The position numbers and the translations under genes were made by a program. From Sphingobacterium composti (GTDB lineage: Bacteria; Bacteroidota; Bacteroidia; Sphingobacteriales; Sphingobacteriaceae), in NCBI RefSeq assembly GCF_009829075.1, contig NZ_WUQZ01000007.1, forward strand, positions 102,792 to 166,791: a stretch of 64,000 bases of DNA. The letters run 5' to 3'. The notes below the pieces were generated by a model, which was given only the letters and a program-made list of their open reading frames with translations, was not told where the DNA came from and searched no databases. Positions 20,124-64,000 of the stretch are shown in pieces (position 1 is the first letter of the stretch; every line of letters starts with the position of its first letter).

Positions 20124-21002
20124 TTAGCAAATTATTTTTAATGCACTTGATTTAACATTTATTTGCAAATCACCATTCATATTTATTGGCTCCCCATCCA
20201 CGTGAATAGGTCCATCATCCTTACGTTTGATCAGGATATCTCTACCTGGAATTATTTCAACATATTCTGATTGATCAGCTGAACGATTGAACAAATGAAA
20301 GACCATCATAGGCAAAATATAAAGCGGAAACTTATGTACAATACAAACATCCAATATACCATCATTTACCGAAGCATTTGGGGCTATATAGGCATTATTT
20401 CCATATTGCGGAGAGTTTGCGACAGAAATCATAAAAGCCTCACGCTCATATTCCACGCCATCTATTGTCAACTGATATTTACTGGGCTTATAATTACTAA
20501 TTACATTTATAGCAGATCGCAAATAACCAATTGGTCCACGTATAGAATCACTTGCAAATCTATCCGAAACCGAAGCGTCAAATCCCAAGCCTGCAATGTT
20601 GAAAAATGGTTTATCATTAATCACACCACAATCTACTCCAACGGTCTCAAATCTATTCAAACGATTGATAGCTGAAGTTTCATTCATTGGAATACCTAAA
20701 TAAAGCGCTAATCCATTTCCCGAACCTTCAGGAATAATTCCCATTGGTATATCCGAACCAATTAATGCTGAACCTAATTCATTTATTGTACCATCACCAC
20801 CGACTGCGACGACCGCATCATATCCTTCTTCAATTGCCATTTTACCCAATTCATATGCATGATTGGGCTTAGTCGTCTGTTGGAAAGTTGGTTTAAACTT
20901 TTGCATATCCAACGCCTCTAAAACTTTTTTGTTAAAAGCAGTTTTTTTCTTGCCTCCTGATATTGGATTAATAACGAAAAGTATCTTTTTCTGTTCTTGC
21001 AT
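20124..21002 (-). CDS. Diacylglycerol/lipid kinase of the YegS-BmrU family
   Basis: Cytosolic ATP-dependent lipid kinase (292 aa from the ATG at 21002). The catalytic domain starts LFVINPISGGKKK and has the nucleotide loop VAVGGDGTINELGSAL with the conserved GGDGT. PEGSGNGLALYLGIP, then a beta-sandwich domain ending in IHVDGEPINMNGDLQINVK, complete the family. The substrate (diacylglycerol, sphingoid or another lipid) cannot be read from sequence. A TTG at 21014 is a less likely start. Confidence 0.88.
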   Translation of the reverse strand: MQEQKKILFVINPISGGKKKTAFNKKVLEALDMQKFKPTFQQTTKPNHAYELGKMAIEEGYDAVVAVGGDGTINELGSALIGSDIPMGIIPEGSGNGLALYLGIPMNETSAINRLNRFETVGVDCGVINDKPFFNIAGLGFDASVSDRFASDSIRGPIGYLRSAINVISNYKPSKYQLTIDGVEYEREAFMISVANSPQYGNNAYIAPNASVNDGILDVCIVHKFPLYILPMMVFHLFNRSADQSEYVEIIPGRDILIKRKDDGPIHVDGEPINMNGDLQINVKSSALKIIC

Positions 21003-21074
21003 AACTAAAATCAACTGAGTAAATATAGGCTAAATTTTCAATAGGCGTAAAAATTAATATAATACCTACCAATT

Positions 21075-21106
21075 TTTGGGATAATAATAAAAGTGTTGTA
21101 ACTTTG
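21075..21106 (+). promoter_or_regulatory. metK promoter
   Basis: TTTG (21075-21078), 20-bp spacer, TAACTTTG (21099-21106): an excellent match to the Bacteroidota promoter. Transcription would start just before the riboswitch-like leader at about 21119. A leftward TATATTTG at 21110-21117 may be the -7 box of the divergent lipid kinase gene. Confidence 0.65.
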
Positions 21107-21118
21107 CGCCAAATATAA

Positions 21119-21192
21119 ATGTGGACTGATTTGCATTTTACAAATCTTAAGTAAAAAGGGAGATTGCAACCACGGAAAAAAAGTGCTAAAAA
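21119..21192 (+). ncRNA. SAM-II-like riboswitch in the metK leader
   Basis: The leader contains, in order, GTGG (21121-21124), ACTGATTTG (21125-21133), GATTGCAA directly before CCAC (21170-21173), an A-rich linker and GTGCTAAAAA (21183-21192). The same order is found in SAM-II: P1 stem, GAUUU loop, UUGCA before the P1 3' strand, an A-rich third loop and a terminal GCUAAAA pseudoknot strand. Between GATTTG and TTGCAA there is a longer insert than in the minimal aptamer, including a possible hairpin (21128-21133 with 21141-21146). The class is known from Alphaproteobacteria and Bacteroidota, and metK makes the ligand, so feedback control is expected. Not tested by covariance model. Confidence 0.7.
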
Positions 21193-21271
21193 CCATTCAT
21201 TCATTCGTTTTTCCACTTCTATCTATTGATAGCACCTCCATTTTATTAGTGTTAAAAACAAAAAAATAAAT

Positions 21272-22525
21272 ATGGCATACTTATTTACATCCGAATCCGT
21301 ATCGGAAGGCCATCCTGACAAAATTGCCGATCAAATTTCAGATGCATTAATTGACAATTTCTTAGCTTGGGACGAAGATTCACGCGTAGCAATAGAAACT
21401 TTAGTTACGACAGGACAAGTTGTATTAGCTGGAGAGGTTAAGTCTAAAATTTATCTTGATGTTCAAAAGATTACACGTTCTGTAATTGAAAAAATAGGCT
21501 ATACCAAATCAGAATATATGTTTGAGGCGAACTCTTGTGGTGTCCTTTCGGCCATACATGAGCAATCCGCTGATATCAATCAAGGTGTGGATCGTAAAAG
21601 CAAACAAGAGCAAGGTGCTGGTGACCAGGGAATCATGTTCGGCTACGCGAGCAACGAGACTGAAAATTATATGCCTTTGGCTTTAGACCTTTCTCATCGT
21701 TTGCTATACGAATTGGCAGAATTGCGTCGTGAAAATAACCAAATCACCTACCTGCGCCCTGATGCAAAGTCGCAAGTAACTTTAGAATATAGCGACGACC
21801 ATAAACCACAACGTATTGATACTATTGTAATTTCGACCCAGCACGATGAGTTCGACACGGAGCCAAATATGTTGGTCAAGATTACAGAAGATATCAAAAA
21901 TATATTGATCCCCCGTGTAAAGGCGCAATTAAAGCCTGAATTACAAACTTTATTCAACGATGATATAAAATTCCATATCAATCCTACTGGAAAATTTGTA
22001 ATCGGCGGTCCGCACGGTGATACGGGATTGACAGGGCGTAAAATCATTGTAGATACATATGGTGGCAAAGGTGCTCACGGTGGCGGTGCTTTCTCAGGAA
22101 AAGATCCATCAAAAGTTGACCGTTCAGCAGCTTATGCTACTCGTCATATTGCGAAGAATTTAGTTGCTGCTGGTGTAGCTGACGAAATATTAGTACAAAT
22201 TTCTTACGCTATCGGAGTAAAAGATCCAATGGGGATTTATGTAAATACGTATGGCACAAGTAAGGTGAATTTTACTGATGGTGAAATTGCGCAAAAGATT
22301 TCAGACTTATTTGATATGACACCTTATGGTATCGAAACAAGACTAGGTTTACGTAATCCTATTTATGCCGAAACTGCAGCTTACGGTCATATGGGAAGAA
22401 CAAATAAGAAAGTAACGAAGACTTTTGACAATACAAATGGCGAAACTAAAACCCTTGAAGTGGAATTATTCACATGGGAAAAATTAGATTACGTCGATAA
22501 AATAAAAGAAGCATTTGGCATCTAA
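21272..22525 (+). CDS. metK: S-adenosylmethionine synthetase
   Basis: Makes S-adenosylmethionine from methionine and ATP (417 aa, normal length). Signatures seen: [20 protein letters not shown] at the N-terminus, [12 protein letters not shown] (about residues 116-127), the P-loop-like [19 protein letters not shown] (about 270-288) and the catalytic lysines within it. Stand-alone gene with its own promoter, riboswitch-like leader and a 3' hairpin. Confidence 0.97.
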
Positions 22526-63908: not shown

Positions 63909-63919
63909 GTATAAAAAAA

Positions 63920-64000
<81 letters not shown>

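Follow-up and report, generated by a model that had tools for sequence, protein, structure and literature searches.

The metK leader in the window, which is the whole 64,000-nucleotide stretch of DNA that was analysed, raises the question of how a SAM-II aptamer could control a gene whose start codon lies about 80 nt beyond it. Translation in Bacteroidota often starts without Shine-Dalgarno pairing. To our knowledge, riboswitch action in bacteria that largely lack Shine-Dalgarno sequences is poorly worked out.

The SAM-II aptamer of the metK leader

The covariance model of the SAM-II "long loop" family (RF01726) matches positions 21115–21199 of the forward strand with a score of 51.7 bits, relative to a gathering cut-off of 44 bits, and an E value of 5.3e-07 over 64 kb. 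It is the only one of all 4227 Rfam families to match the metK leader above its cut-off when searched at E ≤ 10; six further matches at this threshold score far under their own cut-offs. Candidates for further copies of SAM-II in the source genome were rejected, as the second-best RF01726 match genome-wide (locus L002) reaches 23.2 bits, and the difference from the 51.7 bits of the metK leader discounts a chance resemblance. The pseudoknot core of SAM-V, which is also reported from Bacteroidetes, is described as nearly superimposable on that of SAM-II, and SAM-V acts via an adjacent Shine-Dalgarno sequence (PMC6061858). However, the SAM-V model has no match in the metK leader at E ≤ 10 in the search with the 4227 families. 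The original prediction had placed a SAM-II element before metK and proposed the comparison with the Rfam covariance model as a check; its outcome, together with sequence conservation and gene context, bears the prediction out and supports the assignment of the leader to the SAM-II long-loop class, which is already known. Table 1 of a 2010 publication lists SAM-II long loops of Bacteroidetes (PMC2864571), and the predicted metK aptamer, which belongs to the same phylum and is matched by the covariance model itself, does not differ from the class as presented in the passages of that publication.

All of the predicted parts of the aptamer are on the forward strand. The 5′ strand of the stem P1, GTGG (21121–21124), has its partner in CCAC (21170–21173), and is followed by the conserved L1 block GATTTG (21128–21133), identified from the covariance model and the alignment. 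The long-loop insert (21134–21161) includes a hairpin, as judged from fold statistics, and has GGGA at its 3′ end. The block GATTGCAA (21162–21169) provides the 5′ strand of the pseudoknot and continues directly into the 3′ strand of P1, so that GATTGCAA and CCAC together span 21162–21173. An A-rich linker (21174–21182), recognizable in the sequence and the covariance model, leads to the 3′ strand of the pseudoknot, formed by GTGCTAAA and the subsequent AACC (21183–21194), in which GTGCTAAAAA occupies 21183–21192. The blocks GTGG, GATTTG, GATTGCAA with CCAC, the A-rich linker, and GTGCTAAAAA had all been recognized beforehand and lie where they were predicted. The formation of the pseudoknot upon the addition of SAM and the binding of SAM by the metK aptamer are predicted.

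The alignment of Sphingobacterium leaders contains 42 of 49 segments, after the prior removal of repeated segments and the exclusion of L070 and six segments from other genera. The sequences GATTT, GATTGCAA, and GTGCTAAA are invariant in all 42 leaders, which was the second check proposed with the original prediction. Similarly, GATTGCAACCAC and GTGCTAAA are unchanged in 42 of 42 leaders, whereas the insert and loop vary. P1 varies on both sides: among 190 loci, 134 have GTGG/CCAC, 48 have GAGG/CCTC, and eight have other or unresolved combinations, some of these unfit readings perhaps because the script picked a G-rich stretch of the insert. By visual inspection, the GG of the GGGA at the end of the insert can pair with the CC at 21193–21194 to form P2a, which seems to vary in step, with GG/CC in Sphingobacterium and CUG/CAG in Flavobacteriaceae. 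For the source sequence taken by itself, the hairpin that had been suggested within the insert is weak (−1.6 kcal/mol, p 0.21); across the genus, it is evident (mean z −2.04 for 37 distinct inserts). GATTTG and CAAATC (21141–21146) constitute an inverted repeat at 21128–21146 that extends into the insert. It is confined to the closest relatives and was set aside.

At E ≤ 0.001, 288 of the 301 family genomes have a match to RF01726, one in each, with 223 scoring above the cut-off and 65 below it. The gene downstream of the match is metK in 111 of the 111 loci that were read out of the 288; these comprise the source locus, 30 listed loci, and 80 loci picked from stronger rows, and weak matches are therefore under-represented among them. 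Three of the 111 loci (L090, L092, and L094), which have AATTTG and failed the motif rule, are omitted from the set of 108 family leaders used below. Across the wider class, a match is present in 61 of 395 genomes, and metK is positioned downstream in 28 of the 30 matches listed, the other two stopping at a contig edge. Conversely, the aptamer was found in 57 of the best 80 of at least 591 metK loci, and in 25 of the 28 class loci with metK, where the three failures have variant cores. GCTAA and the start codon are separated by a median of 77 nt, with distances between 50 and 110 nt in 104 of the 108 family leaders. The long insert and the gap of about 80 nt, previously considered unusual, are thus the norm of this lineage and its long-loop family, and the metK SAM-II element is ordinary for its lineage.

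The metK gene (21272–22525, forward strand, ATG at 21272) encodes an S-adenosylmethionine synthetase of 417 amino acids with Pfam domains PF00438, PF02772, and PF02773, and was found as a single copy in the genome. Among the best 80 of at least 591 loci, the closest named relative of this MetK is that of Sphingobacterium allocomposti, with 93% identity, and the source genome probably belongs to Sphingobacterium. The divergent neighbour of metK (20124–21014, reverse strand) encodes a YegS-like lipid kinase (DAGK_cat, YegS_C), and a 5S rRNA (RF00001, 50.3 bits) at 63916–64000 of the reverse strand is clipped by the end of the window. The predicted metK promoter (21075–21106, forward strand) consists of TTTG at 21075–21078, a 20 nt spacer, and TAACTTTG at 21099–21106, and was assigned from the sequence and the consensus of Bacteroidota promoters. 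A TAnnTTTG-like element, with one extra base allowed, is located directly upstream in 98 of 108 leaders, compared to 8.65 in shuffles, which agrees with the promoter proposed earlier for this leader; a TTG 17–28 nt farther upstream is present in just 20 of 108. The position of the element directly upstream indicates that the aptamer starts near the predicted transcript start. The predicted metK leader has a length of about 160 nt.

Candidate outputs of the riboswitch

In the 20 nt next to the start codon, none of the 108 family leaders contains a Shine-Dalgarno-like motif. A terminator-like site, defined as a G+C-rich hairpin with a T run after it, is absent from the source tail and present in one of the 108 family leaders, and an intrinsic terminator was rejected as the output. 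The masking of the start codon by a freed strand was also rejected: the folding of 77 leader clusters in free and bound-like states predicted no consistent shift in the accessibility of the start site. In the bound-like state, the accessibility of the region from −20 to +15 is lower in seven and higher in eight of the 23 Sphingobacterium clusters, and lower in 12 and higher in 19 of the 54 other clusters. The absence of Shine-Dalgarno-like motifs and of a consistent change in accessibility upholds the argument, made from the length of the gap, against direct masking of the ribosome site. The SAM-II riboswitches of metA and metZ of S. meliloti (Alphaproteobacteria) share with the metK element the pseudoknot aptamer class and regulation at a distance; however, as described in passages of PMC9373788, their platform is a Shine-Dalgarno sequence or an intrinsic terminator, neither of which was found here, and the gene controlled here is metK.

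We propose, as a reading to which we give an even chance, that the SAM-II aptamer, when binding SAM, would release a downstream strand that is otherwise paired with the pseudoknot strand, and that this is likely to lower the expression of metK. Without SAM, GUUUUUCCACUU (21207–21218) would pair with AAGUGCUAAAAAC (21181–21193) and sequester the pseudoknot strand, and metK would be made. With SAM, the pseudoknot would hold GUGCUAAA, the anti-strand would be left single-stranded within a C/U-rich, G-poor tail, and metK would be turned down. In a further step, of which we are less confident, the freed tail would load Rho, transcription would stop before metK, and SAM synthetase would be lowered by its own product. 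The OFF direction of the switch was chosen because SAM-II riboswitches are reported to act as OFF switches (PMC9373788; PMC6061858) and in view of feedback logic, and by this analogy metK is probably repressed by SAM.

Rho-dependent termination is our best guess for the favoured output, because the tail has a bias of C over G and rho is present in the genome. The proposed Rho-loading region (21195–21247, forward strand) was delimited by its composition and has 53 nt, of which 13 are C, 3 G, 26 T, and 11 A. C exceeds G in the tails of 76 of 77 clusters. When compared to 108 control leaders of the same genome, which are regions upstream of predicted ORFs rather than mapped 5′ UTRs, the source tail is exceeded in pyrimidine content by just three, its excess of C over G is reached by seven, and its low G content by 19.

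It is possible, if rather unlikely, that the same aptamer and strand exchange have a translational output, in which the refolding induced by SAM hinders the loading of ribosomes at the A-rich start without masking a Shine-Dalgarno sequence. Such an output would suit bacteria that often initiate without Shine-Dalgarno pairing. It also has a parallel in the SAM-II riboswitch of S. meliloti metA, reported to control translation from a start 74 nt off (PMC9373788). However, control of S. meliloti metA depends on a Shine-Dalgarno sequence, whereas the family leaders have none, and the similar accessibility of the −20 to +15 region in the free and bound-like folds argues against a translational effect.

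The putative anti-aptamer strand

The original prediction named no platform for the switch, for which a downstream anti-aptamer strand is a good candidate. In the source leader, this strand is predicted to be GTTTTTCCACTT (21207–21218, forward strand), identified by motif enrichment and predicted folding, which starts 13 nt past the pseudoknot strand and is a complement of 21181–21193 with a 2 × 2 internal loop. It is followed by a small predicted hairpin, CTATC-TATT-GATAG (21219–21232, forward strand), and by another stretch complementary to the pseudoknot strand, TAGCAC (21230–21235, forward strand), facing GTGCTA (21183–21188). The latter is the best duplex of the window. The predicted fold of the source tail is modestly better than those of shuffled sequences (z −1.67, 11/200), and the hairpin with the anti-strand is part of the best structure.

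In Sphingobacterium, the block GUUUUUCCAC comes after the aptamer, separated from it by a loop of variable length. The pattern UUUU-N0-3-CAC, which is a complement of the pseudoknot strand, is present in 19 of the 23 Sphingobacterium clusters, compared to 1.85 (sd 1.29) in shuffles, and in its strict form in 37 of the 46 loci. A looser pattern of UUU-N0-3 followed by CAC, UAC, or CGC fits all 46 loci, but was dropped as evidence because in other clades it also fits 79 of 141 loci. The best partner of GUUUUUCCAC is AAGUG-CU-AAAAC of the pseudoknot strand, with 78.4% of cells pairing, compared to 33–50% in slid registers. In three loci (L050, L051, and L054), the block is replaced by UUUAGCAC, a perfect complement of GUGCUAAA, so the fit is kept while the sequence is changed; UUUAACAC in L066 and L067 is a near-perfect complement of GUGCUAAA. 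L120 and L121, two named Sphingobacterium leaders that do not belong to the 46 loci, lack U3-N-CAC and carry GCGCAAATC, the complement of GATTTGCG. The block contains TCCAC, which could alternatively pair with P1, in 27 of the 46 loci, and does not in 19. The sequence GTGTTAAAAAC (21249–21259) lies shortly upstream of the start codon and is similar to the pseudoknot strand GTGCTAAAAAC, with which it could compete for the anti-strand; it is limited to the closest relatives and was set aside.

No pair of the Sphingobacterium hairpin varies on both sides, as its partner strand is nearly invariant, and 500 of 500 shuffles of the 3′ letters reach the observed pairing. Coevolution of the two arms was rejected, since own and swapped arms pair alike (P 0.65). 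In terms of duplex energy, just seven of the 23 Sphingobacterium clusters perform better than shuffled tails (p ≤ 0.05), and the source sequence is not one of them (p 0.11).

The tails of other clades contain different complements. In the other Sphingobacteriaceae, GCAATC, the complement of GATTGC, is present in 15 of 54 clusters, compared to 0.90 expected, with a combined duplex Z of −9.3. By visual inspection, CTTTAG(C) faces GCTAAAG in Flavobacteriaceae, and GTCAAATC faces GATTTGAC in Algibacter-like genera. The two bases beside CAAATC match those beside GATTTG in eight of 16 clusters, several of which are related, compared to 2.93 after permutation (P 0.0011). Complementarity to the joined core exceeds that of dinucleotide shuffles for three of the four clade groups (P 1.2e-4, 4.2e-4, and 8.5e-12), and is not enriched in the fourth (P 0.23). 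In the last 60 bases of Flavobacteriaceae metK leaders such as L149, L158, and L162, a small hairpin of the GACG-loop-CGTC type overlaps the GTCAAATC anti-strand; hairpins of this type recur with changes in several genera of the Flavobacteriaceae.

The conserved tail blocks could also be sites for a protein, for example a ribosomal or RNA-binding protein, next to a real aptamer, instead of competing strands. The main Sphingobacterium block is indeed kept as sequence, without two-sided covariation, and no coevolution of its arms with their own partner was observed. However, clades differ in their blocks, yet each block complements a strand of the aptamer core, while a decoy with a reversed core is significant in none of the four clade groups, and the complement is preserved in variants such as UUUAGCAC, in which the sequence is lost. 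We consider protein sites improbable.

Natural losses and co-occurring SAM-I riboswitches

Thirteen genomes of the family do not have an RF01726 match, and metK is present in the assembly of ten of them. None of these ten metK loci has a match to any SAM riboswitch, so the replacement of SAM-II by SAM-I before metK was rejected. Both aptamer and tail are gone in eight of the ten (L260, L261, L263, L264, and L266–L269), where the promoter element ends 21–44 nt before the metK start; a shortened leader of 66 nt remains at L265, and a decayed copy at L262. The joint loss of tail and aptamer is expected if the tail serves the switch. It is very improbable that the leader resembles RF01726 only by chance or as a decayed relic and does not sense SAM. 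Although the leader is dispensable and has left no trace at eight of the ten loci, the core blocks stay invariant in 42 aligned leaders in spite of variation in the insert and loop, P1 changes are compensatory, and 288 of 301 genomes have a single match.

The source genome contains three SAM-I riboswitches (RF00162), which respond to SAM and belong to the same pathway, but have an unrelated fold and precede genes other than metK. They are positioned before metF (L253:2282–2380, forward strand), before a metZ-like gene for a Cys/Met-metabolism PLP enzyme, with a homoserine dehydrogenase gene behind it (L254:2145–2258, forward strand), and before metE (L255:7237–7338, reverse strand). SAM-I was found in 298 of 301 family genomes, and SAM-I and SAM-II together in 285 of 301 (E ≤ 0.001). 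A survey from 2007 reports no species with both SAM-I and SAM-II; a limited literature search found no later correction, which is weak evidence of absence.

As a tentative and somewhat doubtful generalization, metK SAM-II riboswitches throughout Bacteroidia may use a tail of about 75 nt with a complement of the core that is re-aimed from clade to clade and freed by SAM within a Rho-loading tail, while SAM-I would govern methionine synthesis, so that two unrelated sensors would divide the pathway. The targets, proposed with the same reserve, would be the 3′ strand of the pseudoknot in Sphingobacterium and Flavobacterium, its 5′ strand in other Sphingobacteriaceae, and L1 in Algibacter-like genera. 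The anti-aptamer platform and the division of labour between SAM-I and SAM-II seem to be new: the main-text passages of PMC2864571 contain no description of an anti-aptamer tail downstream of the aptamer, and titles and abstract openings retrieved in a literature search include no paper on a SAM-II platform in Bacteroidota.

For bacteria largely without Shine-Dalgarno sequences, the metK leaders offer a testable answer to how a riboswitch may act, namely by a short anti-aptamer strand whose sequence varies between clades, together with natural relatives that lack both aptamer and tail and in which the promoter adjoins metK.
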